Of a stretch of DNA of 64,000 nucleotides, positions 17,701-37,345 are shown one piece after another. The translations under genes were made by a program, and so were the position numbers. The stretch is taken from contig BLSF01000054.1 in assembly GCA_012862575.1 (NCBI GenBank), forward strand, positions 124,001 to 188,000, in the 5' to 3' direction. Origin of the DNA: Parietichytrium sp. I65-24A. Its lineage: Eukaryota > Sar > Bigyra > Thraustochytrida > Thraustochytriidae. How positions within the stretch are numbered: position 1 is the stretch's first letter; each line of letters begins with the position of its first letter. The notes beneath the pieces are model-generated. The model did not search any database, was not told the origin of the DNA, and was given only the letters and a program-made list of their open reading frames with translations.

Positions 17701-20700
17701 TTTCGGTGATATGATCAAGTCGCCAAGCGAGCTTGAGCACACTGCCGGCCAATAGTGCCCACTGCTGCTGTCTGCGAAACTCCAGGCCCGTCATCACCTC
17801 TGCCAGGCTTAGAGTCGCAGTCAACCACACATGGGCAGTGTTAAACATTGGCCGAATAGCATCAGCTCCTGAGTCAAATTTAACACGGTCCACTGAAAAG
17901 TGCAAACGGTCAGCGCCAAATTCGCTCGCTTGCTTCGAGTCGCTGTGCTGCGTGATACTTCCATCCATGACGACCTTCTCAATACAAAGGCGGGACACCT
18001 TACAGATTCGATCGACGACTCGTTTTGTTGAATTTGCCTGAACCAACTCGATAACATCTTCCGCTTCAAAGGCATTTATTATACCAAGAGTTGTCGCAAG
18101 ATCCCCTGTTCGAAACGACACGTCCGTCTCCTCAAGGCCGAATTGCGCCATCAGATTTATATCGTCCCATCTCATTTCGAGAAGGTATGGAACGGGCTTG
18201 ACGTGCTGTCTTTTTCTGCTGCGCTTCGTGCCAACTGGTGGGGACAGCCCTTCCCGTGCGATTTCGGCCTGAATATCCTCGCGCATCATGCTTGGAATGC
18301 CGACGTGGAGCATACGAAGGTTTAAACCTCGAAAGTAAAATTTCCCTCTGGTCTTTCCAGCACATGGCTCGTTCTTTCCACCGGCGTTTGCTTTGACCTC
18401 TTTGTCAGATGAAGGCATCTTGAGATAGTGTTTCTCGAAATAGTTCAGCAGCTGGTCTATCTGCGGTGCCACGGGGTGGAAAGCGAGCATCATGAGTTCT
18501 AACTCCTTGACACCCTGCGGCGTGACGAATATGTTGATCCGGTCTGTGCTATTAATCTCAAGTGTCTGTATTTCCGAGTCTTGTGATCCTTCCCCCCCGA
18601 ACCGCGAAGAGAAGTCTGGCTCTCTAGATCGACGATCGCTCTGTGCATTGATTTTATCGCTGCCATCAACAGCTACTACGCACACGCCCGGACCGTTAGC
18701 TTTAATGCAAGTGTGCAGAACACCACAGTCGCCCGCTACGTTCACTGGAACGCCTTGGCGAACCATGTTGGTAAAATGGACGGATTGGTTCCTCGGTTGC
18801 GCTTGGACGCTTGGACATTCCAGAATGCTAAAAGGAACACTCTCAAGGCTAAAGTTCTCCACATATGGATAGAGGTTTGCCACTTCCACGTGATGTTCAA
18901 GAATTTCACTTGCCGAGAATGCTCCAACGTTTGCGCCGGTGTAAATTCCTGTGCATGGCCTTGCCTCGCTGCTGTGAATACGGCGCATGGACTTGGCCCT
19001 CCGTAGCTCCTTCTCAATGGAGCCCTCCGACGACGAAGAGGAGGCCGTGGAGGGCGACGAAGACGACCCCGAAAGAGACTTGTCCGAGTAGGACAGATCC
19101 CCGACACGTTCTTCATCTAATTCCGTCTTGCTCCAGCTCTTGTCTAGGTCGTGGCTTACCGGCGAAGGACTGCGCGATGATGAAGAACGCGAGCGAGAAC
19201 TCGAAGAGGAACGACTTCCTGAAGAAGAGGAGCGTGATGATCGCGAATAGCTGGACGATGTTGACCGGGAACTCCTGGACCCAGAGCTTCTAGAGTCTGA
19301 TGACCTTGACGAATAGGAGGAGTAAGAAGAGTGAGAGCTATACGAAAAAGAAGAACTTCTGGAGCGCGAGGTCTTGGAGAATCTGGGCGCATCATCAAGA
19401 GACTTTGCTCCATCTTCTGCAGACCAGAATGACCCTTCCGAGTCGGAGCCAGAGTCCTTTTCGTCAGTTTGATCCGCGTATGGTTGTACAGCAGCATTCT
19501 TCTCTTCCGCGGGCCTTCGCGCTGCTCGATTGCCACTCTTATCCGCACCCTTTTGCCTCCTCGACCTCCGCGATGGCTTAAATGTCTTTCCCTCCTCAAG
19601 GTTGAGAGAGCGGGCATCATCGAGCTCCGTCTTCCGCTGTTTTGTAAGACTCTGCGCTGTGAAACTACTTGCCCGGGCGATTTCGGAAGCTCTCCCACTT
19701 TTGCCTTGAATGCCCAGCACTGGACCATTTGGTGCAATGCCCCCGGTGCCTGTTCGGAAGCTCTCAATCTTGGAGGCTTTGTCCTCCATTGTCGGAGCAT
19801 TTGCTGTGGTCTGAGAGGCGGCCACAGGAGGATGAGCGCCGCCAGTTGCACTATTACTTGGAACGCTTGTCGCTGCAGAAGCTGCTTGTGGTTTCGACGT
19901 TTCGGTCTGCACGTAATTGAATTTGTACATCTGCACAGCATATTTATAGTCCACCTTCGGGAGCTTTGCAAACAGCGAACTCCATTGCAGTGGGTATTGG
20001 TGACTCGCCGTAACATCGTCAAACATTTCAATGCGAAGTTGGCGAGCTTCATTTAGAATCTCAAGGAATGACTCTTGGTTTCTCACGTGCTGGTCCAAGT
20101 CAACAAGTGTTCCACTCAGAGAGAACTCGGCCCCGGCTTGAAGATATCCAAGCTGAATCCAAGCGGACACCTCTTCCTCGTCGCCATCTCCTGCCTTCAT
20201 GGATCGATAAACCTGCGATCGTCGATGAAACGTATCCGAGGCATACCGTCTACTTCCCATGTTTTGAAAATACATTGACGAACTGTCTTGCATCAACTTT
20301 GAGCTCTTTCCCCCCTCGTTGAAATGCTCAACTTGAGCCAACTGGCGGATCTCGATTCCCAGCTGATTGACGGAGCTAAGCCTCCACGCGTTCTGATGGT
20401 TGATCAAAGTATCCCCCACAAGCTTTGCCTGAGCCGTTTCCATGTGCACAATGCTCTTCCCATTAGGGCACCACAAAGTGATGCGCTGTGGGCTAACAGT
20501 GCACACAACTGTGCGGCGTGCGTAGAGCCGACTGAGTTCTTGAGCGCTATCTTCCTCGCTCAAACACGACGTTGTGCGATCCACACTTTCGTTGTAAATG
20601 TTGAATGGCTGTCCATGGGTTTCTGATTCCGGCGAATACGGCGTCTCGCCTCCAGATTTCTGGAACCAAGCCTGAGAGTTCACAAACGAGTAAGCCCCGC

Positions 20701-23700
20701 CGCCGACAGAGTCGTTCTCGTACCCGCCAAGTCCACTATCGCTGGAGGAAGTCCCGCGTCTGGGAAACCTGAGACGTATGAAAGAGCTGCTATGAGTGCT
20801 TGAAGGCTCTATACTTACGGCGCTCGAGGTCATCACATCTGAACGACGGCGGTGTGAAATGTGCTGGTCGTCTTGGCCATCGATCCCCACGGGGCTCACC
20901 ACTGCCTCAAGGTAGCTCTTGTCCTGATCGGCTCTTGCATGCTGTTTAAACAACATGGCATTGCTCCAGCGATAGCTTGCGTATGAAAACGCTGCATACT
21001 GGATCGCGTCTTTGGCCTTGCTGAGAGAGGCGTTGGGTTCCTCCTTGAGTGTTCTTTGGATCTGGGTCATCACATTTGTGGAGATTTTGTAAATTTGCAC
21101 GCCGTAGACCAGTCTGGCCTCCCTCTTTGCGTTTGACCCATTTTCTGGCCTAAATATAAAAGTTGGAGCATTGATCGGTCCACTGTTGCCCTTTTTGGAA
21201 ACCTTCTTGTATTTGTGCATTGCGCGAGAGGAGAGAAAGTGTGGGTGGCACTGAGAAGCGTCAAGCTTGGACGACAGACACTTGACTTCACCGTACAAAG
21301 GATGGCTCTCAATCTTTCGGGCGTTTTTGGAACCCTGGCTCTGGATTCCGATGAGCTGACTGGTATGGCTTGTTGAAGCTAAGTCCTTGCACTGTTGGTA
21401 GGAAAGGTTAACCATGCTCCCGCTGAGCATCGACACGTACAGTTTGAGCGTACCAATCAAACGACGCCTCCCATATGCCCCATCAAATATAAAGACATCC
21501 ATGTCTGACAAAACTGGCACCACAAAATAATACGTCGAGTTCCAGGATGGTGAGTCCGTGTCTGGCATGATGTGTGTCCGGAACACTTGGTCGCCGCATA
21601 CGACCTTCGCGTAAGCGTGCACTTTGACAACTTCAGAGGAGTCTGACGGTCTTGGAAGATCCTTGGCGTTGTTGAGGTGAAATTTAACGATAAACGTCTC
21701 CGCGGGCTTGGAAGCAGTGGAAGTGATTCGATCCCACAAAGCAAAAGGAAGCGCGTCTGTTGCACCGGACCGCAGAGCAAACCTCTGTCCGCCATTACCG
21801 ACATTCCCGTCGGTGAGTCTAGACCAGCCAAACGAAAATGAGTCCAAGGACTCAATTATGGAATGCAGTTGAGCGATCTGCACATCGCCGCGAATTGAGC
21901 CGACGTGAATCTTTTTCGAGTCGCTGTAGGCGCACGTTGGGGACACAGGATTCTGCTCGTCCCTGCCGTAGAGTGCATTACTGTGAATACGAATACCTTC
22001 CCATACAAGCTGACCAAATTGCGGCCGGGCGAGCGAGTTTTCGTACAGAGGATACAAGTACTTCTTTCCTCCGCGGTTCTGCTGATGCTGACGAATATGT
22101 CTTGGGTACAGGTACGGTAATTTGGTGGAAGATCTGCGAACGTTTCGGCGCATGTGCTCTGTCGGAGAAGATGCTACCGGGGAGCTAGCGGCCCCAACAT
22201 GATGGTGATTGTGATGATGGTGATGCACGCCGATCGGAGACTTTCTTTCCAACGAGACGAGATTACCCGTTGATGCCGCAGACTGTTTCAGACCACCAGA
22301 CAGCCCAGCAGTTTCGCTCGGCAGGCCAGTGGTGCCAAGAGCTTCAGACGACGGGAGCTGGATACGTACATTGTCCACATTGAAGCACAAATCCATGAAC
22401 CTGCACGCATTGTAGCGCATGTCCAGAGAAAAGCGAGATGTAGAGAGTATAATACCATGGGTATCTGGATCGTGGAAATCGCCCTCGCGATCAAACTTCG
22501 GGTGAAGATAGAGCGGAAGTATTAACTGTACGTCGGTGTAAGACATCTGCAAGAGAAGTTCGTACTCGTTCGCAGCCGCTCGAGCGATTCGCTGGTCTGG
22601 CGTGACATACCACTGCTGAAAGGCGACCCTGGATCTCAGATTCGTGTTATTACAAGCAGCGTAATCGTCCGGTGAGATGGTGTAGATACACATGCCAAAG
22701 TAATTCTTTTGAAAATTCATCAGGGCTTGAATGCCCTCCGGAATAAGAACCAGCTTTGGTCGCACGAAATGGGTGTTCATGTTCAGAACATCCGTGTTGT
22801 GCGGGTTGATTCTATTGCAGTACGAGTAGGTACCGTTGATGTAGAAGGCCTCAAAAGACAAAAAGTGTGGCTCAACCCAGTCAACTTTATGATCGTTCGC
22901 TGCGGGCTGAGGGTGCACGATACTTCTCCGCGGATGAGCAGCGGGCAGACACAAGGCAGCATGACACGAGGAACTCCAGCTGTCGACAGCCTTGTTGTTC
23001 TCAAAGCTTAGACTCCAACGAATGTTCTCTCGACTGGCCTCGAATGAAAGGGACTGGGTATCGACCTCAAACTTGACTTTGGGGACCTCAAGACGGACGA
23101 GATGGTTGCAACTGTCCTCGTCTAAAGATGACACTACATTGTCCTCGTTAACGTTGAACACCCAGGAAGCCTTGTCCATTTCGCCCTGAAACACGTACTC
23201 AATAGGGACAAAGAACTCCAGCTTAGAATAATTCGTGGACCCGCCGTATTCTGGCGATGTCCAATCCGATACCAGATCCGTAATGCAGTTGATGTGTTCA
23301 CGAGCGGGCCGCAGCTCCGGTGAGCGGAGGGCATTCTGAAATATCCATTGTTGTTTGCCATTCCATTCGTTCGTGTACTGCAGCAGCCCGCGGACGACAT
23401 ACTCAGAGCAGTTGAGCATGCGGGATTGCGTCACCGACGACTGAACCCGCGCTTGTTTCATTTTCACTTCAAACACAGTTTTGTAACCGGATGCGCTCAT
23501 GGAAACTAGCGGCATGTCGTAGCTGATGGAGGAGCCTTGGTTCATGCTCAGCTCGATCCATCCGCAAGCCTGGCCATGGGCGCGCGCAAAAGAAAGAGGC
23601 CCATCAATCTCATTAAGTGCATCACGCTTGCCATGACTGTCATCCTGAGCACTCGTTGTGCCCATGGCCTGAGCGGCAGCAGCGGACGTTGGAGACAGAA

Positions 23701-26700
23701 TTCCGTTATCAGTGCCATTTCGATCCGAACTCTGATGATGACTTCGCAATTGGGCGATTTGGTACTCCAGCAAATTCTGCAGCTCTGTCGGAATGCGCGA
23801 TCGACTATCTAGAGCTACGCGGCGGAGCTCGTGGAGCTGAGGGTGATCATAGCCGAACTGATCTTCGAGTGGTTTCAGGAATCCCAATTCGTTGCCCAAG
23901 GAAGATTCTAACCGAGCGCGAATTTGGTCCGCGGAGTAGCCGGGCAGATGTTTCGTGTAGAACGCGATTGCCATTGCCTCAAATACTGACGAGACAGGAA
24001 GTTCTGCGATTGCCTTTTCAAAATGATGAATCAGCAGGACATCGTCTGGGCAGATGTTGGAAACAAACGTTTTCAACTGAAGTTCTCTACCAGCATACTT
24101 GCGCCATAAAATTCTGGAAAGCCGATCCGAGCCAAGCTGCCGATGCATCTCGCTTCCTACCCCGATGATTCCTGATACTTTATTCGGGTCTTTTTGCAAG
24201 AGCATTCTAGCAACATCCACAAGGGCTTTCTGATACTGTTCTAAACCCTGTATTTGAGAAGAGAGTAGTCCGGATGATCTGTGCATCAAAGCTTTGAAGT
24301 CGCAATCGATAATCCAACCTTCCGATGTCGCATCCAAGTAAGCCTGTGAAATGTCGTGCGAGGAGCTCATCCGCGAAGCATAGGAGGAAGTGCTCGAGCC
24401 TCTTGATTGGCGAACCGCATTCAGACCAAACGTGTTATACAGCATTTCCGAAGTGCTCGGACTAACGCGTGCAGTATCAGATCTCATACGCTGGTCAGTA
24501 GCGTTGAAAGCCCGCTCTTGTGCCTGAAACTGTTCTCTCAGCGAGCTCCAGATATTGATATTTCCAGAAGAGTCCTCGTGGCTATCGGCGCCAGATAAGC
24601 CTCCGTACAAACCAATATTCTTCACTCGATAAGGAATGCGAAAGTTGACTGCGCCATTAAACACGATGTTGCAGGCAAAAACAAGTGGTATTCTTGCCTC
24701 CCCCACCTTGGATGGCCCATACACTGGTTGAGTTTGATAATTCAGCGGAAAAAACCGACTGAAAAAACTGTCTCTTTGCCTATCTGCCCAAGGGCCGTAA
24801 GTGATTGTTGTCAGAGACTCCACTCCATTCCGTGCTTTCACCTCAGATCTCTCCGAGCCGATGCTGATACTCAAGACGAATTTTGGAGCCTGGCGTTGAG
24901 CGGACGGACCCTCCACAAACCCTTCGATTTGCTCCGCAGTGACGGGGCCAGGCTCGTCGTACCACATATGGAATTCGATGCGATCCGTTACAAGGACATC
25001 AGGTTCAGGGAGATGGCCAGGCCGCTTTTTGGTTCTCTTTTTTTGGCGCTTGTGAAAGTTCAAAGGGGCGGCGGGGTGGTCAGAAGGAGACGAGTCCGCA
25101 TTGCTAGCCTGTGCGGGACGTGGCCCGTCTGGCTGCTGATATTGACTACTTTCACTTGCTCTGTGAGTGGAGCCTTGGCTAGACCGGGCGTGCCGTAAAA
25201 TGTGCGCTTTTTCATCAGTTGGGTCCCCCACAAGTTCGTTGACGTGATTGACGCGAACGGGCGAATGCGCGTCGGCGCCTTGCTCTTCTTTGGCAAGCTT
25301 GTCACCTCCCAAATGAGACAGTGACCTTCCAAAACTCCGAAGAACATCAAGACTGTTCCTTCGCTGTCCTCCTCCGCTCGAAGAACCGTTCCCGCCGGAG
25401 CCGGTCATGTACAGAGAGCTGTTGTTTCCTTGACCGTTTGCAGTGTGTTGAGTGCTGCTTTGATGGCCATGACGCCCCGCTTTGTCTCGGGGATTCTCAT
25501 TATCGAAGCTCTCCTCGTGATCAATCATTGAAGAATCCGTCGCGTATGCGCTATCCTCCCCCTCCTCTTCCTCATCGGGCACAAGCCTCCTTTTGTCGGT
25601 GGATGGCATAGAGATTTCTGGGAACAAGTCTCTGAAGAAACCTACGACGGCTCTTTTGCCATTCTCGAAAATATCATCTGAATAATGGACCTTTCTGTTT
25701 GTAGACGCCAATGTCTCTTCGCCAACATACTGCTTATTTCCAACGAATTTTAGCCTAACCTGGTTCCACACGAAGCGGCTTGCAACTCGATATTTGTCAA
25801 GGCCCGCATTGACTTGGTCCTCGGGGATTTGTTCGCAATAATGCATTCCGTAGCCTTTGCTCACATGCAAAACTAATGTGGATTCCAAGCTCGGGTCTGA
25901 TATGTACACACAAAGCTGGTTGAGCTCTACCTTGCTGATGGGAAACACCTGATAAAACCATGGCATCTCGTGAAGGCTCTCTTGCTTCTCCTCAGCGCCA
26001 GACATGGATTGCTCCTCTGCTTCCTCCTCGGACTCGGACGTTTCAAAATCCATGGATCCCCCATTTTCCAGATCGTCCTCTCGCGCAACACGTGCAGCCC
26101 CCCCACTCTTCCGACGTTTATGCCGCCCTCCACGGCTGCTTCCCGACCGACCCGAAAGCTCAGGAGAACGAGAAAAACGCGACTTGCAGCAGAAGATGAA
26201 AAGGAAAACTCTGTACAAGCACGAGCCAATTCTTGAGCAGGTCGATCTCTTGTGCAATCTCGAGGTTTCGAAAGCTGTCTCCGAGTCTTGATCATCTGGG
26301 ATATTTACATCAATGTGGCCCTGACTGTTCCTGCTCTTGCGAACATTCATTGGCTGCGAGCGAAATATCTTTTCCATAGCCTTTTCTATCTCCGTAAACT
26401 TTTCAACATTGTTGAAAACGCTCAGCTCCACACCAGAGAAAAAGGACGTCATGCGATAGGGCAGGCGGCTGCTTGCTTTATCCGCAAATTGCGCGCCAGA
26501 TTTAACGACACGCCTGGCGCGATGTGCCGATATGGGGGATATTCCTCCGTCCTCCTCGCCACCATGCACAGTCTCAGTCGGCTCGGCAATGTGCCCATCC
26601 TTAGACTGTGGAGGATTGTACTTTTTGCTCTCCATAAACTTCTCCGGGTTCCCGGCCACACTCTCCTTCGCGAGCCACCACAGGATAGACACTCCGCCTT

Positions 26701-27274
26701 CCACGATGCGAAGATGAATATTTGCAGATGCATATTCCAGATCTTCGAAGGTAATTTTGCCACCGTTCAGTGCAATTCGCATCGAGCGGATTCTGATTGC
26801 CGCAGAATCCGTGCTACCCTTACCGGGGCGCAGAACGAGAGAGTTGATGAACTTGGACACAATCCAGCCAACCAAGCGTGGGCTGAATTGCACGAGTAGA
26901 ATGATGCAAAAGCCCAAAATCATATTCCAGAACAGATACCCGAAAGGGAGCCCATCAGAGCCCCAATACACTTCCGCAAAGTTCTGCCAAAAGCTTCGGG
27001 CTTCGCAGAGCTGTGTTCCAGATGGCAGCGTTCGCAACTGACAACTTTCGGGACACCCGAAGGGTTCGCTAATCGAGTAGTCCAGCTGCACATCACATTC
27101 GTCCCCACGTGACGTGATCGATCTGCAGTACTCTCCTGAGGTGAGCCATTCGCACGACGTTTCCGCTTCGCAATCAATCTCGCTAATGTATGCCGTGCAA
27201 TTAACAGTTTGCGCGTGACCAAGATGCGCCGCGCAAATTGCAACGAGGCCGAGGCACGCAGCTCGCCTCGCCAT
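8765..27274 (-). CDS. BLTP1: Giant bridge-like lipid transfer protein BLTP1 (Csf1/KIAA1109/Tweek family)
   Basis: This uninterrupted frame of 6169 residues has its ATG at 27274. Residues 1-21 are a signal peptide. Residues 22-108 are a cysteine-rich lumenal head (C26, 35, 41, 50, 60, 74, 78, 90). Residues 109-130 are a membrane helix. Residues 163-200 are the chorein-like entry of the BLTP1 family (GKITFEDLEYASANIHLRI then VSILWW). The hallmark YGPWADRQRDSFFSRFFPL (about 820) matches animal BLTP1. A C2-like domain lies at about 1856-1945, a His-rich loop near 1680, a long Arg/Ser-rich segment at about 2600-2715, and the conserved C-terminal YVFESDFFDHPIVISTDIRD follows far downstream. BLTP1/Csf1 proteins form long hydrophobic channels that carry phospholipids from the ER to other membranes, including for GPI-anchor synthesis. 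At 6169 residues it is longer than human BLTP1 (about 5000), mainly through disordered insertions. No intron is needed across 18.5 kb. Confidence 0.93.
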   Translation of the reverse strand: MARRAACLGLVAICAAHLGHAQTVNCTAYISEIDCEAETSCEWLTSGEYCRSITSRGDECDVQLDYSISEPFGCPESCQLRTLPSGTQLCEARSFWQNFAEVYWGSDGLPFGYLFWNMILGFCIILLVQFSPRLVGWIVSKFINSLVLRPGKGSTDSAAIRIRSMRIALNGGKITFEDLEYASANIHLRIVEGGVSILWWLAKESVAGNPEKFMESKKYNPPQSKDGHIAEPTETVHGGEEDGGISPISAHRARRVVKSGAQFADKASSRLPYRMTSFFSGVELSVFNNVEKFTEIEKAMEKIFRSQPMNVRKSRNSQGHIDVNIPDDQDSETAFETSRLHKRSTCSRIGSCLYRVFLFIFCCKSRFSRSPELSGRSGSSRGGRHKRRKSGGAARVAREDDLENGGSMDFETSESEEEAEEQSMSGAEEKQESLHEMPWFYQVFPISKVELNQLCVYISDPSLESTLVLHVSKGYGMHYCEQIPEDQVNAGLDKYRVASRFVWNQVRLKFVGNKQYVGEETLASTNRKVHYSDDIFENGKRAVVGFFRDLFPEISMPSTDKRRLVPDEEEEGEDSAYATDSSMIDHEESFDNENPRDKAGRHGHQSSTQHTANGQGNNSSLYMTGSGGNGSSSGGGQRRNSLDVLRSFGRSLSHLGGDKLAKEEQGADAHSPVRVNHVNELVGDPTDEKAHILRHARSSQGSTHRASESSQYQQPDGPRPAQASNADSSPSDHPAAPLNFHKRQKKRTKKRPGHLPEPDVLVTDRIEFHMWYDEPGPVTAEQIEGFVEGPSAQRQAPKFVLSISIGSERSEVKARNGVESLTTITYGPWADRQRDSFFSRFFPLNYQTQPVYGPSKVGEARIPLVFACNIVFNGAVNFRIPYRVKNIGLYGGLSGADSHEDSSGNINIWSSLREQFQAQERAFNATDQRMRSDTARVSPSTSEMLYNTFGLNAVRQSRGSSTSSYASRMSSSHDISQAYLDATSEGWIIDCDFKALMHRSSGLLSSQIQGLEQYQKALVDVARMLLQKDPNKVSGIIGVGSEMHRQLGSDRLSRILWRKYAGRELQLKTFVSNICPDDVLLIHHFEKAIAELPVSSVFEAMAIAFYTKHLPGYSADQIRARLESSLGNELGFLKPLEDQFGYDHPQLHELRRVALDSRSRIPTELQNLLEYQIAQLRSHHQSSDRNGTDNGILSPTSAAAAQAMGTTSAQDDSHGKRDALNEIDGPLSFARAHGQACGWIELSMNQGSSISYDMPLVSMSASGYKTVFEVKMKQARVQSSVTQSRMLNCSEYVVRGLLQYTNEWNGKQQWIFQNALRSPELRPAREHINCITDLVSDWTSPEYGGSTNYSKLEFFVPIEYVFQGEMDKASWVFNVNEDNVVSSLDEDSCNHLVRLEVPKVKFEVDTQSLSFEASRENIRWSLSFENNKAVDSWSSSCHAALCLPAAHPRRSIVHPQPAANDHKVDWVEPHFLSFEAFYINGTYSYCNRINPHNTDVLNMNTHFVRPKLVLIPEGIQALMNFQKNYFGMCIYTISPDDYAACNNTNLRSRVAFQQWYVTPDQRIARAAANEYELLLQMSYTDVQLILPLYLHPKFDREGDFHDPDTHGIILSTSRFSLDMRYNACRFMDLCFNVDNVRIQLPSSEALGTTGLPSETAGLSGGLKQSAASTGNLVSLERKSPIGVHHHHHNHHHVGAASSPVASSPTEHMRRNVRRSSTKLPYLYPRHIRQHQQNRGGKKYLYPLYENSLARPQFGQLVWEGIRIHSNALYGRDEQNPVSPTCAYSDSKKIHVGSIRGDVQIAQLHSIIESLDSFSFGWSRLTDGNVGNGGQRFALRSGATDALPFALWDRITSTASKPAETFIVKFHLNNAKDLPRPSDSSEVVKVHAYAKVVCGDQVFRTHIMPDTDSPSWNSTYYFVVPVLSDMDVFIFDGAYGRRRLIGTLKLYVSMLSGSMVNLSYQQCKDLASTSHTSQLIGIQSQGSKNARKIESHPLYGEVKCLSSKLDASQCHPHFLSSRAMHKYKKVSKKGNSGPINAPTFIFRPENGSNAKREARLVYGVQIYKISTNVMTQIQRTLKEEPNASLSKAKDAIQYAAFSYASYRWSNAMLFKQHARADQDKSYLEAVVSPVGIDGQDDQHISHRRRSDVMTSSAVSIEPSSTHSSSFIRLRFPRRGTSSSDSGLGGYENDSVGGGAYSFVNSQAWFQKSGGETPYSPESETHGQPFNIYNESVDRTTSCLSEEDSAQELSRLYARRTVVCTVSPQRITLWCPNGKSIVHMETAQAKLVGDTLINHQNAWRLSSVNQLGIEIRQLAQVEHFNEGGKSSKLMQDSSSMYFQNMGSRRYASDTFHRRSQVYRSMKAGDGDEEEVSAWIQLGYLQAGAEFSLSGTLVDLDQHVRNQESFLEILNEARQLRIEMFDDVTASHQYPLQWSSLFAKLPKVDYKYAVQMYKFNYVQTETSKPQAASAATSVPSNSATGGAHPPVAASQTTANAPTMEDKASKIESFRTGTGGIAPNGPVLGIQGKSGRASEIARASSFTAQSLTKQRKTELDDARSLNLEEGKTFKPSRRSRRQKGADKSGNRAARRPAEEKNAAVQPYADQTDEKDSGSDSEGSFWSAEDGAKSLDDAPRFSKTSRSRSSSFSYSSHSSYSSYSSRSSDSRSSGSRSSRSTSSSYSRSSRSSSSGSRSSSSSRSRSSSSRSPSPVSHDLDKSWSKTELDEERVGDLSYSDKSLSGSSSSPSTASSSSSEGSIEKELRRAKSMRRIHSSEARPCTGIYTGANVGAFSASEILEHHVEVANLYPYVENFSLESVPFSILECPSVQAQPRNQSVHFTNMVRQGVPVNVAGDCGVLHTCIKANGPGVCVVAVDGSDKINAQSDRRSREPDFSSRFGGEGSQDSEIQTLEINSTDRINIFVTPQGVKELELMMLAFHPVAPQIDQLLNYFEKHYLKMPSSDKEVKANAGGKNEPCAGKTRGKFYFRGLNLRMLHVGIPSMMREDIQAEIAREGLSPPVGTKRSRKRQHVKPVPYLLEMRWDDINLMAQFGLEETDVSFRTGDLATTLGIINAFEAEDVIELVQANSTKRVVDRICKVSRLCIEKVVMDGSITQHSDSKQASEFGADRLHFSVDRVKFDSGADAIRPMFNTAHVWLTATLSLAEVMTGLEFRRQQQWALLAGSVLKLAWRLDHITEINTEPKKIQSLAELCPQTEWQSHDEGTLSRAVVISRFRRIACFIPEYEQLLHGVAACQLDRHADVNTIPLDILAGVGSQMNMYLEKGYKRHFPSSYSFFMDVLNAPMMASSSVARSTSFVKRPRNVDVQIMAKEMLAQVLVPDKVGGRRRAKDVFMFASPSPEVEKAVSKIWTTVEVHPADCVCLSSKVCNVTFNLFKSVTEMTSSKARRGDPGGVVGGPASDGVPNLSRGFNELGSTASIPSTLTSSGPAIRAVSFSADYTMSSRVDKISTSVSPDFMNAVSASRTVLEHTSILLNDFNFKRRSAAHLHETEISTIRCNEDVGESLNPFHHHIPVEISRDADNGAQNITWQPLAKNRRGKTQKQPSVLNMDTPFDQARLSNQQNSRGEDTLGDMRAPKFVRDQGASNGLARGASKRRGDTIEMVNLRDSDTELQTFSSLDDSSLAKRRDSGLPGHTRVHSSSVTEDLKMRLSRTRKSKMDAKRRKSMLQGGAHIQPTESNIASSERPGLAGFRSENLPSTSNGYNADAHAPPDAFDMGDLDEEIEVEESHLDPYVMPGPAYAAPPSEELRVRFAKEQSSNSLLSEATGTTDPDAVEYVLHEQQSSFFVTVFIEDFKAILRSASTVATECKLLDTVSPSEDKEELAETLAVMSLKRQNMSWNRLSQHHEAELSAQADHGAQIQQDQGSSSTLPENANRLRDFLLLSIESVMFKVLGTKPGQKNLWECSFGVSNVHVNGLLAVDPKSASGGRNALGAETLTDVRFMIGTQSTIASIPLHAMDQRKVQTLIDAWFMSYKSSLERWGDFTTGRAYGPSSRLNPGAMSPRSVIETGLSPTEGNGSDTWGAGVLPGQNEGVRGNSSSFDRGRASSADEANTSSPRKRRRRHSLHEKIETLANAAAVMHQDPGIVKVKYSVTCRLYNIEAVIQPTARLLVRYNMKSLSASFSKDEDSTLSSQLNIGKSTIAFDKRQSRVTITTVDQIYSAAKSGAALEKKDKKQDEKDGLEDGILFEQSLPQIWLRAGLRASKKHAPVSRRHPEKEGDFAETHTRHQKSHSLESVSLVSESGSRMDRRADMSSFPMAFSTLSSNVSVATESVSGARLHKGRNRERALLADPNTELVMRLKVIVEPIRNSFTPDVVEQFLVLQSGLATEINSLLASLNRFSAEMAGQQPQSPTHIRESPAVSSREPPNRANLGEGDATTFRAKKPKGLAVQVPMASSNAAPNRATLMVPDTDDYAQGSAHRMRYSFNFILGGISLAAMSDVETTDSPNLTEIGRAWDKGTSTELKRKGPWAELHTGRFQFIIKSAFSNDFVPRQELEKEGSNHSVDWKANSEVKLDHLLSDDADDRFISESQDMVWFGRVKFQGLQCSLHRVKFDTGVPKKAGSSDEEAGASVDDLLNVRTDIKVLYDPISSKHLPSDEQGMTSIIRSAWNQTCTVRIENTLFTVEPGFVESGRSLWVEYIHAVRLYQYMRANERSLFPDAGSDAEDHTAQFAEEGETDLGQFERMDRYVQLMWKNVKEPIRSELNGTKLYLKSLKRMAVNINIFNTALVVPYRYIPSHAQHHAGGQPKEDGSLFVTLESIRGRGYMDNLVTALFDDLHGGESVESLHRRIRNSAAFRSGASVSSAGASRNAAGEQGLMRRKENSLIGCLVSSDLIASFQSTKVRIPQAGPVDVRLHQQSSCTFALNSVQVSLSGTTSGSNETKTMNRGGVISVASPTDKSRHDSEHASSSGEPGTQDREDAVKLAVVVTVSGPVINVGLSALPQIVGLKESYTLATLRFPSQAAPDVADAESDNMSLEIRIPESNMAGDDARKPLYRTSPLRPVSVDLTVRVNPGSVSISGKDAKEDLRRNARTGSGIESLGGAEVTGKLASFGLPRICLTSYMSRVDEVSVVETRVAPFPIPSHQRRRSSSDNVVPADLMMGSSRKKGSPGRQKHAKSVDSTDSGPRPEPMNPGARRTRPRFSSDTETPRPSARLSKVSKSIEDSRVRKHHFTTVSHVNASFEISFEEIQLAQVAIVAADRVLAELSRIDCEAEEHRARSHRGPATSFVSSGYDLHSDADMNSEGGAHAQGLQEEDGSNVSSEVRWNVMVRLSPLSIVSSFEALNPGDDVSAKIAVKKPIEFMFSSGPEIMNAGDEDTITVECMTVYIPQIEAVLHEPAYFGKITFLELRGNMSQGHGLMALPVNVSMFDVGRVECDFNFFNAEKLFGLQYGWSREWQNAEKVVELLSGYRAVHEGSAESSGVSEATASVGVESEADFRQLPGGGMHRYERPSSARVGGGRESTGDGVGEDEFLFMEEDFYKPAQHSSTMMVETRIGYIDVKADLGMHQPMVVSLEVMGISSRYFQPQMVSAVNVPEVVHFFLDTKAILLQSRGQLEGGLHIDPGVVLHLMRDSSRMPSMDMLMDRPSYVSATDIRRFHESSPPPAADWQPWMKNKSALNHCRFKIKNKLWSQILDSPATNDPVQQRNLLLALDSQGFLLAVSEDVPDLRTCTSIVILSAAYFDMHLSSEAMPSLIRLYKKLEEQFDEGKRSAKPKFYGKESDANSTAWAFGGDGHQKSKTLGSYESSGTVLEVGSTDGRRDSSLSNAERVREATLRALKATGIVQIDIESLDISLVRDVSNDRKKSPAVAATLDETCSLYLSVGKHGNEIIRKLEVSLKHSFMVSRYEQMFVPGNQFASYLHTHGRLYQQQRDPKSSASFKERRPLTSSSSVHSLGATSAREEAHNEGSGKKEDPMRKGSNLSMPHSRHSKGRKRQKPVFALHQSSIKMRTTQKLNPPDRVQNRRAPAVPTYELIPRLQYVFESDFFDHPIVISTDIRDYTYVKKIVDGCLRSVQESLHPGSMLEYSGENSSADDHLFKGGGRDSADAGARGARGDGGDEFQRLFLQDPNVRESFVFNPQVNVMGDATTIALGIVMNRLDLNKEKLPEKLHAMLTDNLETLLAVAHDGLRAMDRAFGDQPTGDRSSRRGRGD

Positions 27275-28281: not shown

Positions 28282-30276
28282 TTATTCCATGAGACGCAGA
28301 TATATGCGCTTGATAGCTCTTGCTTCGAAAGAGACATTGTGGATGGTGGGGTCAACCTGCACATCTGGCCCGGTTTCGATGACCGTGAGGATGCCCTTGC
28401 CGTGGCGATCAGCAGCCTCGAGGAACGAGATGATCTCGTGCATGGTTGCGTCGGGGAGAACGAGCATATGCTTGGCCAAGGTCTCGGCCAAAGCCAAAAA
28501 GCAGCGCTTCGCGTAGTACCATGTATCGGTTCCGAGCTTCTTGTCGTACGGCTCGAGGCTCTTCATGATCCTTGAAATACCAAACTCGTAATTGCCCTTC
28601 GCGCAATACAGTGTTCCGATGACCAGATTTACAATGCACAGATGGAAGCACTGCTTCTCCGGGTCCTCGTATGCGATGCGTTCCTCCTCCTTCTCGATCC
28701 TTCGCATGAGTTCCTCCGCCTTTTCGTTTTGGCTGGTCATAATGTACGAAACGCACAGGTTTGCAAGCACGATGGCAGTGACATCGAGAATCTGCTCCGT
28801 CTTCTTAACAATTGGCTCGTAGTAATGTATTGCCTGCTTGTACTTGCCCTGCATGAAGAAAACATGTGCGACATTTCTTCGCCAGCTGGGGTGCTCTGAG
28901 CAAAACTCTGAACTCTGACGGAAGATCTTCTCTACCATGCTGTAGTGCTCACGATCCCAGTAGATGCGAGCCTGGCTCATGAGGACTGGGATGTACTTTT
29001 CCAGAGCCAGGTCGTACTCCGCAAGCGCATCTTTGACAGCGTCATTATCGCGAGAAAGCCTTGAGTCCTGGATTTTCTTGGTGAGCTTGCGCAAGTTTTC
29101 AATGTTGCGCTTTGCTAGATCGTCGTACTTGCGGTACGCTTCCTCTGGTGAAGTTTGGACCATGATGGTAGCGTCCAAAAAGTCGTACAGCTCCGGAGAG
29201 AGGTTCTTGAAGGTAAGATGGGTGTGCTCGGCGAGGACGTCTGCAGCCAAGTCGTAGTATTGATACTTGCAGTACAATAGCAATATGTTTCCAAAGGTTT
29301 GTGGTGGATGCGGTGGGTTGGCGAGCAAAAAGTTGAGCTTCCGTGACCCGCCAGTGAAGTCTTGCTCGATATTCATCAAAGCTTGATTGTGCAGGGTGAC
29401 CGGGTCAAGCTCTTCCTCCGTTCTCGGCGGCATGTCACTGAGTGCTTCGCGCGCCCCTTCGTAGTTGCCGACTGGCTTCATGGAGTACTCGATTGCGGCT
29501 TTTAAGTTGAAGGCTTCCACAAGTGCAGTTTCGCGAAGGACCTGCGAGTTGCCAACGCTGCGGACGTCCATGCCTTCAGCGTTACTTCCCACTCCGAGCT
29601 CTGGGTGTTCCCGGACTCCCCGCTCAATGATCTCCGCAATGTGCTTGAGCGCTGGGCCAAACTGGCCCATTTGATAGTGGCACAGCGCAATGTTGTGGGC
29701 CAAGTCTGGCTGGTACCCAGTGGTATTCATTGCCTCCGTGAACTTGACTCTTGCTTCTTCGAATTTGCCCTCCTTGTACGCGATGCAGGCGTGGCAAATG
29801 ATTGTCTCCGGGTCGTCCGGCAGGCACTGGTCCGCCAACGTTTCGCAAGCGCGGAGGTCCTCTTGTTCGTACTTGATGGCCGCCTGCAGCATGGCCAATC
29901 GTTGGGCGTATTGCGGGTCGTCAATCTGGAAGCAAGCCCTGGTTGCTTCGGCGTACAATCCGGCCTTGTAGAGTGACTGAGCAAAGTAGATTCTGTATTC
30001 TTGCACATCGGGGTAGAGCTTGGTGAGCTGCTCGTACATTCGCACCGAGTTTGGAAAGTCTTGCACCATGTAGTAAGAATAGCCGAGTAGAGACAGAGCT
30101 GCCCTCGATCTCGGAAAATTTTGCAGCTCCAGCGTCAACTTGGAAATCACCTCCATATACTTGCCCTCGTTGATAAGCCCGTAAATCACCTCCGTGTACG
30201 CGCCCTCCGCGATTTGATTCCCAAACACCACTTGGCCGCCGCCGCCATGGGAGGTTGTCAGAGCCGCGGTCATCAT
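28282..30276 (-). CDS. IFT70: Intraflagellar transport protein IFT70 (TTC30/DYF-1)
   Basis: This 664-residue TPR superhelix has its ATG at 30276, directly followed by a second ATG. It matches TTC30/IFT70: the opening IPEGxYT-like EGAYTEVIYGLINEGKY (about 23-39), ALSLLGYSYYMVQDFPNS, the central NIALCHYQMGQFGPALKHI, the conserved YCKYQYYDLAADVLAEH and PSWRRNVAHVFFMQGKYK. Length is as in animals and Chlamydomonas (about 640-665). IFT70 is a core IFT-B subunit that wraps IFT52 and is needed to build cilia and flagella and for tubulin polyglutamylation, which links it functionally to TTLL9 in this window. Its presence shows that the organism makes a flagellum at some stage. A TGAGGAC repeat lies upstream. 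Confidence 0.97.
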   Translation of the reverse strand: MMTAALTTSHGGGGQVVFGNQIAEGAYTEVIYGLINEGKYMEVISKLTLELQNFPRSRAALSLLGYSYYMVQDFPNSVRMYEQLTKLYPDVQEYRIYFAQSLYKAGLYAEATRACFQIDDPQYAQRLAMLQAAIKYEQEDLRACETLADQCLPDDPETIICHACIAYKEGKFEEARVKFTEAMNTTGYQPDLAHNIALCHYQMGQFGPALKHIAEIIERGVREHPELGVGSNAEGMDVRSVGNSQVLRETALVEAFNLKAAIEYSMKPVGNYEGAREALSDMPPRTEEELDPVTLHNQALMNIEQDFTGGSRKLNFLLANPPHPPQTFGNILLLYCKYQYYDLAADVLAEHTHLTFKNLSPELYDFLDATIMVQTSPEEAYRKYDDLAKRNIENLRKLTKKIQDSRLSRDNDAVKDALAEYDLALEKYIPVLMSQARIYWDREHYSMVEKIFRQSSEFCSEHPSWRRNVAHVFFMQGKYKQAIHYYEPIVKKTEQILDVTAIVLANLCVSYIMTSQNEKAEELMRRIEKEEERIAYEDPEKQCFHLCIVNLVIGTLYCAKGNYEFGISRIMKSLEPYDKKLGTDTWYYAKRCFLALAETLAKHMLVLPDATMHEIISFLEAADRHGKGILTVIETGPDVQVDPTIHNVSFEARAIKRIYLRLME

Positions 30277-31209: not shown

Positions 31210-32133
31210 ATGATGCAGCAGCGGTGCATGTTGATGGCGCGCGCGGCGGTGCGTGGAGCGCGTGGAGCGCGTGGAGGTAGTGGTAGAGGGAGCGGGAGTG
31301 TGGCGCGCGGGCGGCGGTGTCTGAGCGAGCAGGCAGGCAAGCAGAGCAAGCAGGGCGCCGTGCAGGAGCAGAGCGGCGCGCCGCCGCCGACGACGATCAC
31401 GTTCTCGGAAGGAGCGCGCACGGTGACTACAGGGTCGATGTGGATCGGTGTGGCGGCGCTCGTGGGGATGTCGGCGTTTTACATCGGCAAGGAGCTCGTG
31501 CCGACGGGGGACTCGCCCAACTCGGTGTTTAACTCGGCGTTCTCGTTGCTGAGGGACCATCCAGAGATCGTGTCGAGGCTGGGCGACAACATCAAGGGCT
31601 ACGGTGGGGACTACAGCAAGCGCAAGGAGGGCCGCCGTAACTTTGTGGAGCACGATGTATACAAGGACCTGGACGGCGTCAAGCGCACGCGCATCAAGTT
31701 CAACATGGAAGGATCTCGCGGCAAGGCGACCATCTACGCCGAAGTGGCGGAGAACATGTCACGCGGCGACTTTTCGTACATTATTATCGAGCAGATGAAC
31801 CACGGCGTCCCCGAAGCTGTGGCTCTCTTCGACAACCGCCCTCACTTTACCAAATCCGAAAAGCAGGAGAAGATCGTCAACAAGCTCAACAAGGCTGGAA
31901 CCAGTCTGTACGGGCTCACCAACTGCCCGTGGACACAGCGTCAGCTCCTCGAGATCGGAGAGTTTTCCGAGAAGCTTAACGTCGTCATGTGCGACAAGAC
32001 TGAAAACAAGGAAAAGTGTGACAAGGCTGAGCAGATGGGCATGAAGGGGTACCCCACCTGGGAGATTCGCGGAGAGCTTATCCCAAGCTTTCAGAGCCTC
32101 GAAGACCTCGAGAGCATGTGCCTGCATCTTTGA
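31210..32133 (+). CDS. TIM21 domain fused to a VKOR-type thioredoxin-like domain (mitochondrial inner membrane)
   Basis: The start was set at the ATG pair at 31210 (307 aa), because the frame upstream opens only at a GTG. Residues 1-45 are Arg/Ala/Ser-rich without acids, a typical mitochondrial presequence. Residues 76-94 are one membrane helix. Residues 101-205 follow the TIM21 pattern (SPNSVFNSAFSLLRDHPEI, then KRTRIKFNMEGSRGKATIYAEV). Residues 230-305 resemble the thioredoxin-like domain of VKOR fusions: YGLTNCPWTQRQL with a single Cys (C239), two further cysteines (C261, C270), and the cis-proline loop GYPTWEIRGE. TIM21 couples the TIM23 translocase to TOM and to respiratory-chain assembly. 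Fusion to a redox-like domain is not part of TIM21 in yeast or animals. The active site has CPWT rather than CxxC, so it would be monothiol or non-catalytic. The TIM21 call is firm; redox function is inferred. Confidence 0.85.
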   Translation: MMQQRCMLMARAAVRGARGARGGSGRGSGSVARGRRCLSEQAGKQSKQGAVQEQSGAPPPTTITFSEGARTVTTGSMWIGVAALVGMSAFYIGKELVPTGDSPNSVFNSAFSLLRDHPEIVSRLGDNIKGYGGDYSKRKEGRRNFVEHDVYKDLDGVKRTRIKFNMEGSRGKATIYAEVAENMSRGDFSYIIIEQMNHGVPEAVALFDNRPHFTKSEKQEKIVNKLNKAGTSLYGLTNCPWTQRQLLEIGEFSEKLNVVMCDKTENKEKCDKAEQMGMKGYPTWEIRGELIPSFQSLEDLESMCLHL

Positions 32134-33547: not shown

Positions 33548-36500
33548 ATGTGGGCGTACAGTTTGGGTGCGGCAGAAGACGAGGCCAAACTCATCGAGGA
33601 AAAGACAGGGGAATACAAATTCCTGGAGAACGAGGCAATTCAAACCCGGGTGTTTGAGGGCGCAGCTCATCTGGTCTGGCGGAACGGCGTCGTTGCGAAT
33701 GCTTGGGCAGACCACGCAGGTGTCAAAAGATATGATATTAGGCTAAGCGAGGGCACACTTGAAAAAGGCATTCGAGCTGGGCTGCTCCGTGTTCGAAGTG
33801 AGTGGGCTTCGCCAGTCCAGCGCTTCTCGTCAGGTGCGAAGGTACAAGCAAGATACCTCGGCAAGCACAAATGGTTCCCGGCAACTGTGTTGAGAGTGAG
33901 CAGCTTGAGTGGCTCTGAAGCAATCTTTTACGACCTGCAGTACGACGACGGAGTGCGAGAGGAAGAGGTTTCGAGTTGCTTCGTACAAGAGCGCGATGAA
34001 GCACCGGACATGAGCATTTTCCAACACGAGCATTCAGGTTACGCAACGAACAGTTGTGTTTTCTCCTTGAATGACGAGGTGTTGATGCGGAGCGCATCCA
34101 GCACAGGCTGGGAAGTCGGACACGTAGTCTCTGTTTTGGGTGACGGATTCTACGACGTCCTTCTTTACAGTGGTACAGTTGCGAGGCGCGTACCAGGAAG
34201 CTTACTGTCGTCTCGGAGGTCGGCTCTCTCAGAGCTAGGTGTTGTTGACACGCTAGCCTCGTTCGCATTGAATCAGCGCGTGATTGCGAAACACGGAGGT
34301 ACCGTCATTTGGTGCCGCGGCAGTATTTGTAGGGTGAATACTGTTGGGCCCACATTTGACGTGCGGTTCGATGACGGGGTCGTGGAGAGATTTCTGACAG
34401 CAGACTGTATCGAGGCTTTGGACGAACCGAGCCAAGTGTACATTGAGTCTCCCCATTCGCCAGAGTCCAAGTTTGAAGTCCCTCTTGAGCTTGCTCGTGG
34501 AATGGAATCCAAGTTCGAAGTTGCTCACCTGCCTTTCAGGGTTGGGTCATCTGTCGATTGCAGGAAGAGCGGCAGCTACTTGTGGATTCCAGGAAAGATC
34601 ATCTCCGCCCGCGGAGCCGACTTCTTTGATGTCCACCTCGTGGACGGCACTATTGTTGAGCGTGCACCTAGCGTTTTCATCCGCCCGGCACGGTCCGGGC
34701 GGTTGAGCGACGCTATTTGCTACAAGCTCTTGTCGCCTGCAAAATATTCCATGGAGAATTTAGAAACTATTGCGCAAAGACTCTTCAAATATTCTCATAC
34801 GGAAGACCTGTGTGTTGTTGAGAGGTCTATCTTCATCAATGAGCTTCAGAATCATGGAGAGTTGTGCATCGAAGCCTCGGACTGGGCAGAACTCCATCGA
34901 TGCGGCCAAATGAGCGTAGAAGGGCATGTTCGAGTTGACGCCGTGTTCTCGGACTTGATTCATTTCCTTCACTCCTCTGCGAGATTTGATCTCGCCAGGA
35001 CGAGTCTCCCTCGCGGAGCAATGGTAATAAGTCCCCGCGAAGTGGTGGAAATTGGCAGCACTGTTAAGGTCTTGTTTTCTGACGTTAATGAATCCCACGA
35101 AGGGGTCGTTTACAGGCGCCACTCCTCGGACGACACGGTGGACATCGTTCTTACGAAAGAGAGGCGCAAGCTTCGTCGCGTCCCGGTGAGACCTGCCGTG
35201 TTGGTTCACCGCGAGCCTCAGGAAAAAGCTCTCTTCTGGTCTGGATCTTCACCAGAGCATAACGTCGAAGTTACTGTAGAGCACAAAAACTATGTGAGCT
35301 CCAACTTTCGAAAGGGGCGTCGGGTCCGCGTTCTGAATTCTGATAGCTGGGAAGTTGGGACCGTGGAGCACGCTTTTGACGGCACCTACTTTGACATTAT
35401 CCTAGACAGCGGCGAACGCTTGAAAAGAGTTGGCTTTGAGTGCATGCAAGAGGCAGTGGTCTGTCCGAGCAGCCCGACGCTCATGGGCGAGCCGGGGGTG
35501 CTTGGCAACCTGCCTCTGCCGTCCGCTGTTAAAGTCGGACAGTTTGTGGACGCGCGACATGACTTTGGCAGGTGGAAGCGCGGAAAAGTTGTCGGAATTC
35601 TAGCCAATCCACTCTCCGAGACGTACAAAATTCTTTTTGATGACATGGAAGATATAGTCGAAGTTGATCGACAATATGTTCGAGTGCTAGCCATGGAGCC
35701 GCAGCCACGAAGGCCCCAGATCAAGCCATCTGGGCGATGCGCACGGACTCGTCAAGTTGTGGACGCCTCAACTGAGTTCGTCTTTGGTGAAGAAACCGGC
35801 CTAGTTTCGTCCGCGCCAGGCTGCGCTTCATTTTTCAAGCACGTCTCCTTGCAGACTACTCCATTCTACACACAGAACTCGCAACATACATTGCGAATTG
35901 GCGTTCCAGCTTCTAGCAGCCAGCTGCTCGACCACAACATCGCACTCTGGGTAGATGTGCGCGGAAAGGTAGGCTCCAAACGGGTGGAGTTCCATACCTA
36001 CCAAAAGCTTGTAGAATACAGCGGTCAGCATGTTGTTGTGCCGGTTAGGTTTCGCACTGGAGGTTACACGAAGCCCATAATTGGAGACTGCGTTTTACGG
36101 CTTGGTGGACCGCACGGACCAGTCCTCACGAGCGGCGGCTTCAAGATCCGGCTTTGGCAGGGTCACTCAGTTGTTGTGAATGAAGTTGCCGAGCTCAAGT
36201 ATCCTGTGCCGAATATGGTACACCTTCTATGCTCTGCCGGAGATAGAGAGCTGGCAGTTCGATTTTCTGAGCGCTATGAGCGTTCAGGAATAAGGACCTG
36301 CGTCTCTGTGAGTGACAAAGTGCAAATTCGTCGTGACCACAGAGCAGGCGAAGTGCTATTCTTGCCCGTGATTTCGAAGCACACCCCTGACGAGTGGCTG
36401 AGCGCCTTGATAAAGGAGGAGCTCAGCGCGCTCAAGATGTGCTTGATGATTGAGGATGAGATCGCACGGAGCAAGGCTCAGCTGTTGGACTCGTTGCGAA

Positions 36501-37345
36501 GGGCAAGTCAACAATATTACCGGTTTTCCCGCGACGAGTTCTGCAACACAATAGTGCAGACGAACGCAACTTTGATCCAAAGGGCTCCGGCGTGGAGAAT
36601 CGCTTCGACTGTGTCGCACAAAAAAATTCCTCCACTCTTTGTGATCGTTCCCGACTCAATTGCCATGAACAGGTACTACACAGCGGGTGACTCGGCGGAA
36701 ATCCGCGCCAAGCTGACCAACCTAGCGTTATGTCGACCGCAGAGGCGCACGGACAGGTACACTCTGATCTTCTTCTGCCAGTCCGATGACCTGGCTCGCC
36801 AGTGTTCATGCACGAAGAACAGACAGCTGCAGCACGAGCCATTCACGATCAAGATATCCCCGGAACAGCTTAAAGAGATCCTTCCTGCCATGTATTTCAC
36901 GGTTAAGCTTATGAAATTCTCAGGTCAGCTTGGCCATCGCTCATCCGGACCGCGGGCCAATGCAATTCCTGGCTTGGAGATGCTCTCGGCAAGTGACGCT
37001 GCCTCCGTGCTGCACACGATGTACTTTGGGAACGGCTCAACATATCTCACGGAACATAGCAAGCGCCTTCTCGGAGTGATTGACGAAGCGTTCTGTGATT
37101 TGGTCAGTCCGGGCAAAGCTACAGACCACGGAAAGATATTTACAAAGGCCTTAAACAAGTGCACCTTCGCAACCCACCATGGCATCGACGCACTCCTCAA
37201 GGTCATCACGTCCGATTTTAATGCCCCGCGAATGACTAACTTGAGTCTCATGGAGCGCAAAAGTGACGGCGCCAAGGTCTGGCTCTGCCGGAACCATGCT
37301 CACGGCTCCGCCGAATACCGCCACGCCATGAAGACACATTTTTGA
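33548..37345 (+). CDS. Multi-Tudor-like repeat protein with TIR-like and NLR-type C-terminal segments (function unknown)
   Basis: This 1265-residue protein has its ATG at 33548. About eight Tudor/Agenet-like beta units share a pattern of F..G..V.....W..G.V......YD+.-DG...R+: about 37-83, 93-145, 172-220, 238-290, 330-380, 500-550, 587-635 and 661-712. A degenerate EF-hand-like helical stretch lies at 405-480. A beta-rich domain at 780-872 has no clear match. Residues 887-965 resemble a worn TIR fold (HLLCSAGDRELAVRFSERY, then VLFLPVISKHTPDEW). Residues 1025-1260 resemble the C-terminal module seen in fungal and protist STAND/kinase proteins: PPLFVIVPDS, YTLIFFCQ, and the end KVWLCRNH. There is no membrane helix, nucleotide-binding P-loop or signal peptide. 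A scaffold or immune-like receptor role is possible but unproven. The Tudor-like repeats are the firmest part of the reading. Confidence 0.6.
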   Translation: MWAYSLGAAEDEAKLIEEKTGEYKFLENEAIQTRVFEGAAHLVWRNGVVANAWADHAGVKRYDIRLSEGTLEKGIRAGLLRVRSEWASPVQRFSSGAKVQARYLGKHKWFPATVLRVSSLSGSEAIFYDLQYDDGVREEEVSSCFVQERDEAPDMSIFQHEHSGYATNSCVFSLNDEVLMRSASSTGWEVGHVVSVLGDGFYDVLLYSGTVARRVPGSLLSSRRSALSELGVVDTLASFALNQRVIAKHGGTVIWCRGSICRVNTVGPTFDVRFDDGVVERFLTADCIEALDEPSQVYIESPHSPESKFEVPLELARGMESKFEVAHLPFRVGSSVDCRKSGSYLWIPGKIISARGADFFDVHLVDGTIVERAPSVFIRPARSGRLSDAICYKLLSPAKYSMENLETIAQRLFKYSHTEDLCVVERSIFINELQNHGELCIEASDWAELHRCGQMSVEGHVRVDAVFSDLIHFLHSSARFDLARTSLPRGAMVISPREVVEIGSTVKVLFSDVNESHEGVVYRRHSSDDTVDIVLTKERRKLRRVPVRPAVLVHREPQEKALFWSGSSPEHNVEVTVEHKNYVSSNFRKGRRVRVLNSDSWEVGTVEHAFDGTYFDIILDSGERLKRVGFECMQEAVVCPSSPTLMGEPGVLGNLPLPSAVKVGQFVDARHDFGRWKRGKVVGILANPLSETYKILFDDMEDIVEVDRQYVRVLAMEPQPRRPQIKPSGRCARTRQVVDASTEFVFGEETGLVSSAPGCASFFKHVSLQTTPFYTQNSQHTLRIGVPASSSQLLDHNIALWVDVRGKVGSKRVEFHTYQKLVEYSGQHVVVPVRFRTGGYTKPIIGDCVLRLGGPHGPVLTSGGFKIRLWQGHSVVVNEVAELKYPVPNMVHLLCSAGDRELAVRFSERYERSGIRTCVSVSDKVQIRRDHRAGEVLFLPVISKHTPDEWLSALIKEELSALKMCLMIEDEIARSKAQLLDSLRRASQQYYRFSRDEFCNTIVQTNATLIQRAPAWRIASTVSHKKIPPLFVIVPDSIAMNRYYTAGDSAEIRAKLTNLALCRPQRRTDRYTLIFFCQSDDLARQCSCTKNRQLQHEPFTIKISPEQLKEILPAMYFTVKLMKFSGQLGHRSSGPRANAIPGLEMLSASDAASVLHTMYFGNGSTYLTEHSKRLLGVIDEAFCDLVSPGKATDHGKIFTKALNKCTFATHHGIDALLKVITSDFNAPRMTNLSLMERKSDGAKVWLCRNHAHGSAEYRHAMKTHF

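Follow-up and report, generated by a model that had tools for sequence, protein, structure and literature searches.

The window, a stretch of 64,000 nucleotides from Parietichytrium sp. I65-24A, contains a complete open reading frame (ORF) on the forward strand at 31210..32133, which starts with ATG at 31210, ends with a TGA stop at 32131–32133, has no internal stop in the ORF reading of the window, and encodes a protein of 307 amino acids (P0001). From the N- to the C-terminus, the protein comprises a likely mitochondrial presequence (residues 1–40, 31210..31329, +); a predicted membrane helix (residues 68–96, 31411..31497, +); a TIM21 intermembrane-space (IMS) domain (residues 102–212, 31513..31845, +); and a VKOR-type thioredoxin (Trx) domain (residues 216–307, 31855..32130, +). 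In the genome (42.5 Mb, 172 contigs; introns ignored), the protein itself gives one match, and the Pfam family of TIM21, PF08294, also matches once, at P0001.

The adjoining gene on the reverse strand (window positions 28282–30276) encodes a 664-aa TPR-repeat protein, which we take to resemble IFT70/TTC30 of cilia. Positions 8765–27274, also on the reverse strand, hold a single 6169-aa open frame. The N-terminal 2400 residues of its product match Csf1_N (1.4e-18) and BLTP1_N (7.4e-10), neither of which reaches its curated cut-off, as well as a C2 domain, and the rest, scanned in two pieces, yields no match at 1e-5; the frame probably encodes a bridge-like lipid transfer protein without introns. 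On the forward strand, positions 33548–37345 encode a 1265-aa protein with Agenet/Tudor-type domains.

Domains of the fusion protein

The presequence is suggested by basic composition (nine Lys or Arg and no Asp or Glu in residues 1–38) and by low model confidence: the 10-residue blocks over residues 1–40 have mean AlphaFold2 confidence of 42–49, and confidence is mostly below 50 across residues 1–69. The single membrane helix claimed in an earlier note on this DNA is seen in the AlphaFold2 model ahead of the IMS domain; the hydropathy maximum, a mean of 1.51 over 19 residues at 79–97, is slightly low, the customary 19-residue threshold being 1.6.

PF08294 covers residues 70–194 (E = 2.1e-17; 63.8 bits vs. 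the curated cut-off of 24.1). AlphaFold2 confidence dips within the TIM21 part, where the blocks of residues 131–150 average 64 and 76, and reaches averages of at least 90 in all 10-residue blocks from 151 to the end. Structure searches with the TIM21 and the Trx parts retrieve the expected solved folds (for the former, that of the TIM21 IMS domain; for the latter, with both sequence and fold similarity to 3kp8), and so model and search agree on both folds that the earlier note had predicted. The N-terminal membrane helix and the IMS domain are common to P0001 and TIM21 proteins (PF08294; yeast Tim21, 2ciu), whereas about 95 further residues, forming the Trx domain, distinguish P0001 from TIM21-only proteins. 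Yeast Tim21 terminates soon after the TIM21 fold.

For the C-terminal part of P0001, Pfam gives no match even at E values as high as 1. As a single sequence this part matches the VKOR Trx domain weakly (E = 0.0011), and a profile of the Trx parts of 21 fusion sequences matches it firmly (E = 5e-10); the Thioredoxin family of Pfam is weakly matched by 7/21 family members, with the best value of 0.0011. A protein search with the Trx region only returned 15 candidates, none of which was scored. Pro282 (32053..32055, +), presumably the cis-proline of the Trx fold by its position, is Pro in 84/84 aligned rows. Pfam, the profile match, and the predicted folds thus bear out the earlier proposal that TIM21 and a VKOR-type Trx domain share a single frame, and we regard this architecture as near certain.

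The VKOR membrane domain (PF07884) is absent from P0001 in the Pfam scan. As a partner encoded elsewhere in the genome it was rejected as well, with no PF07884 match found (introns ignored; in the control for this search, 4/14 genomes were matched). Likewise, P0028, a standalone Trx protein, used as a genome query for a second VKOR-type Trx domain, matched P0001's own domain at 2.9e-9 and gave only weak further matches, at 0.0142 (a PDI-like frame) and 0.0535.

The fusion family and its descent

The whole-protein database search found 26 proteins, 20 of which (P0002–P0021) have both domains. The other six (P0022–P0027; P0023 and P0026 are labelled Bacillariaceae) are diatom-type TIM21 proteins without Trx; P0026 stops inside TIM21 and is uncountable as with or without Trx, and the five that reach the C-terminus end shortly after the TIM21 fold. 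The profile search, in which the 7994 candidates sharing most words were scored, gave 16 matches, namely 13 fusions, two diatom-type proteins, and P0028. A joining of two genes by sequencing or assembly error is practically out of the question: the frame has no stop, and 20 database proteins share the join, which rules out both misassembly and a chance ORF as the source of the fusion. One of these proteins, P0013, bears an MMETSP transcript name and has both domains in one ORF, which makes two separate transcripts unlikely; we take MMETSP to be a transcriptome project.

Two fusions are named. P0008, from Hondaea fermentalgiana (a thraustochytrid, as we assume), is 57% identical to P0001. P0019, on a 159 kb contig, is assigned to Batrachochytrium salamandrivorans BASA81; this label is fungal, in contrast to that of the other named fusion, and our guess is that P0019 possibly comes from a contaminating protist in that assembly. 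Among the whole-protein and profile-search matches, few of which bear organism labels, no oomycete-labelled sequence occurs; Tim21 has been reported in a brown alga, diatoms, and oomycetes in a paper whose main text does not contain the word thioredoxin (PMC3097184). Among the listed titles and opening lines of abstracts of open-licence PMC papers, none concerned a TIM21–thioredoxin fusion; Tim21 and thioredoxin-like domains are mentioned separately in PMC5203823.

In the unrooted TIM21 tree, the 21 fusions lie on one side of a branch and the six diatom-type rows on the other (support 100/100); in the unrooted Trx tree, a branch of the same support (100/100) separates the 21 fusions from 63 prokaryotic-type rows (62 loci and P0028, which groups with cyanobacteria). 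Groups common to both trees are P0012 with P0014, P0013 with P0015, P0002 with P0005, and P0016, P0018, and P0019; among the differences between the trees is P0017, whose neighbor is P0021 in one tree and P0020 in the other. Across the 210 pairs of fusions, identity in one domain correlates with identity in the other (Spearman 0.72; the pairs are not independent). The simplest reading of these sequence relationships would be one fusion followed by joint descent; being unrooted, both trees fit one gain, and are also compatible with a diatom loss or a more involved history.

In the Trx tree, the fusions stand next to cyanobacteria, weakly supported (83/51) and with a branch length of 2.0. The tree's sample was collected through a cyanobacterial-type query and leaves out eukaryotic VKOR, its columns are few, its bootstrap is unsettled, and it includes a long row, P0021; hence, this grouping does not fix the donor of the Trx domain.

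Cysteine pattern of the thioredoxin domain

The cysteine alignment comprises the 21 fusions and the 63 prokaryotic-type Trx domains, 62/62 loci and P0028 being included. The three cysteines listed in the earlier note stand where it placed them. Cys239 opens the CPWT motif (Cys239 to Thr242, 31924..31935, +), which retains the Cys at the nucleophile position and has Thr instead of the resolving Cys; Cys261 (31990..31992, +) and Cys270 (32017..32019, +) are the first and second members of an ancestral second cysteine pair. Further cysteines of P0001 are Cys6, Cys37, and Cys304.

The first active-site Cys is found in 20/21 fusions and 63/63 prokaryotic-type rows, and Cys261 and Cys270 are both present in 21/21 fusions and 61/63 prokaryotic-type rows. 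The counts for the first active-site Cys and for Cys261 are partly built in: the prokaryotic loci were retrieved with six peptide patterns, and two of these include both that Cys and the equivalent of Cys261. Neither the second Cys of the active site nor the equivalent of Cys270 is part of any pattern. The second active-site position is Thr in 21/21 fusions vs. Cys in 63/63 prokaryotic-type rows, so that the replacement of CxxC proposed from P0001 extends to the whole family (CxxT in 20/21, DxxT in 1/21), and a normal redox CxxC is ruled out for the fusions. The two rows without the second pair, L066 and L067, are the most distant pair in the Trx tree; in the fusion-only alignment, Cys270 is seen in 20/21, the Cys of P0021 falling in another column.

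The His of the CPHC motif is present in 60/63 prokaryotic-type rows, and Trp replaces it in 18/21 fusions, where the thiol may no longer be activated. Cys239 and Thr242 align with both cysteines of the Synechococcus CPHC motif, named Cys209–Cys212 (PMC3800646). One structure match, 4nv6, is by its title the Synechococcus C212A variant, i.e., the same cysteine loss made by design.

The mean column identity of the Trx domain across the fusions is 54%, and retention of Cys239 in all but one of them despite this divergence suggests that the lone thiol is selected; Thr242, present in every fusion, points to fixed loss of the resolving Cys. P0021, the sole fusion with Asp for the active-site Cys, keeps the domain, and hence the thiol cannot be essential in every fusion. 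The Trx part of P0021 is fast-evolving (24% identical to that of P0001, vs. 47% for the TIM21 part), which suggests that at least one lineage has a drifting domain that lacks the thiol. The Asp of P0021, the universal loss of the resolving Cys, and the change from His to Trp would also suit a redox-dead scaffold, in which the Trx fold is kept solely for docking or stability, with partners in TIM23, TOM, or the respiratory chain, and Cys239 is a relic; against this stands the retention of Cys239 in 20 fusions though their Trx domains average only 47% identity to each other, and we hold such a scaffold to be possible but not probable.

The earlier note had suggested a disulfide switch, in which Cys239 pairs with Cys261 or Cys270, with the three cysteines acting as a redox sensor at the import channel. 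All three exist, and their retention in the fusions, by itself, would agree with a switch; however, the joint presence of Cys261 and Cys270 in almost all relatives that bear a full CxxC indicates that this pair most likely predates the fusion and that its members partner each other, and the resolving Cys is missing from every fusion. We therefore consider the switch very improbable. A lone Cys239 beside an old pair, in which Cys261–Cys270 most likely forms a structural disulfide, fits a single-thiol domain better.

The second disulfide of Synechococcus VKOR is, as we assume, C231–C244; literature support for it was looked for and not found. The Trx domain of plant VKOR homologues is cited as having four conserved cysteines (PMC4555120), a number that fits CxxC plus a second pair. 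P0001 shares with Synechococcus VKOR (3kp9) the Trx subtype, the second cysteine pair, and the YPTW loop; it differs from VKOR–Trx enzymes, among them Arabidopsis LTO1 (outside the alignment), in having no VKOR domain and Thr for the resolving Cys. The standalone cyanobacterial-type P0028 is of the same subtype (38% identical to the fusion profile across 80 columns) and, unlike P0001, keeps an intact CPHC and has no TIM21.

A possible role at the import channel

Placement on the IMS side, as the earlier note had it, is supported by homology to TIM21, and by TIM21 topology the Trx domain would lie in the IMS beside the TIM23 gate. We propose that a genuine TIM21 gained, most simply once, a C-terminal Trx domain of the VKOR-fusion type, which would act at this gate as a client-capture module with a single thiol. 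Inner-membrane proteins that bear cysteines would be bound, on their way in or during assembly, by Cys239 and the groove by Pro282, either non-covalently or through a short-lived mixed disulfide; lacking a resolving Cys, the domain would not be self-sufficient as an oxidase or reductase, and clients would be released by partner thiols, glutathione, or Erv1-type oxidases, with Cys261–Cys270 serving as the structural disulfide. Single-thiol client capture is in our estimate the best explanation, with about an even chance of being right.

With the first cysteine alone, a Trx domain is able to attack a client disulfide or to become glutathionylated, and cannot itself resolve a mixed disulfide, which favors capture and holding, or assisted exchange, over catalysis of oxidation. 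In Synechococcus VKOR, electrons pass from the substrate to the Trx cysteines and further to the VKOR domain (PMC3800646); P0001, which lacks both the second cysteine and a VKOR domain, would have neither an active-site disulfide nor this electron exit.

TIM21 links import and respiratory-chain assembly, and resembles Coa1. The Trx domain might accordingly serve assembly of the respiratory chain, e.g., of complex IV, rather than import, which would agree with the TIM21 part's weak resemblance to Coa1 (a sub-threshold Pfam match in P0001, E = 0.0041; just over the cut-off in the Hondaea fusion, 4e-05) and with the links between import and the respiratory chain described in Arabidopsis (PMC3949100). 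Nothing in the Trx domain, however, suggests metal transfer, and the CxxxC pattern of Sco proteins is absent; we consider this role improbable.

As for clients of the proposed capture module, the Tim17 gene of this genome lies on contig C86 in two exons, whose cysteines, each exon being searched alone, align with residues 10 (DPC, exon 1; E = 5.2e-15) and 77 (FDC, exon 2; E = 1.5e-25) of the solved TIM17 8e1m. In yeast, Tim17 is the channel subunit, with a C10–C77 disulfide on the IMS side (PMC4893733, PMC11850723). Erv1-type domains occur at three places in the genome (L003, L004, and L005), and L005, on contig C53, combines Thioredoxin and Erv1 domains in a QSOX-like manner. Given the kept cysteine pair and the Erv1-type domains, Tim17 is a possible client. 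It is a doubtful extension that the fusion is a natural form of a laboratory "trap" mutant, an import-gate Trx domain that captures emerging cysteine-bearing clients such as Tim17 and thus provides a thiol checkpoint in TIM23. If so, a stramenopile-like protist lineage would have joined a domain of the VKOR disulfide-pathway type to the protein-import gate and removed its resolving cysteine, and the CxxT center would be a ready-made client trap. Work in yeast speculates that the presequence pathway senses the mitochondrial redox state (PMC11850723); a translocase subunit with an attached Trx domain would make such a link directly testable in culturable thraustochytrids. Were the domain redox-dead, the fusion would still show clearly how a translocase subunit acquired a new module within a single lineage.

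It speaks against the capture model that yeast Tim17 is served by its own oxidoreductase, Dbi1, which faces the IMS and also serves Tim22 and Cox20 (PMC11850723). As a cysteine-bearing inner-membrane factor next to TIM23, Dbi1/DMAC1 is a functional parallel to P0001, with no sign of homology: it carries a CxxC and is predicted to cross the membrane twice, and the main text of the paper on it does not contain the word thioredoxin (PMC11850723). In this genome, searched with introns ignored, no member of the Dbi1/DMAC1 family passes the cut-off, L082 and L083 falling below it and L083 being unconvincing on reading; among four CHCH-family matches read for Mia40, also with introns ignored, none has the CPC motif. 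P0001 itself shows neither CPC nor twin CX9C helices, the features of Mia40 (PMC3097184). A precedent for Trx fused to another protein in thiol chemistry is QSOX, which combines Trx and Erv (PMC3800646) and carries its own oxidase domain, whereas here the combination of Trx and Erv resides in a separate protein, L005.
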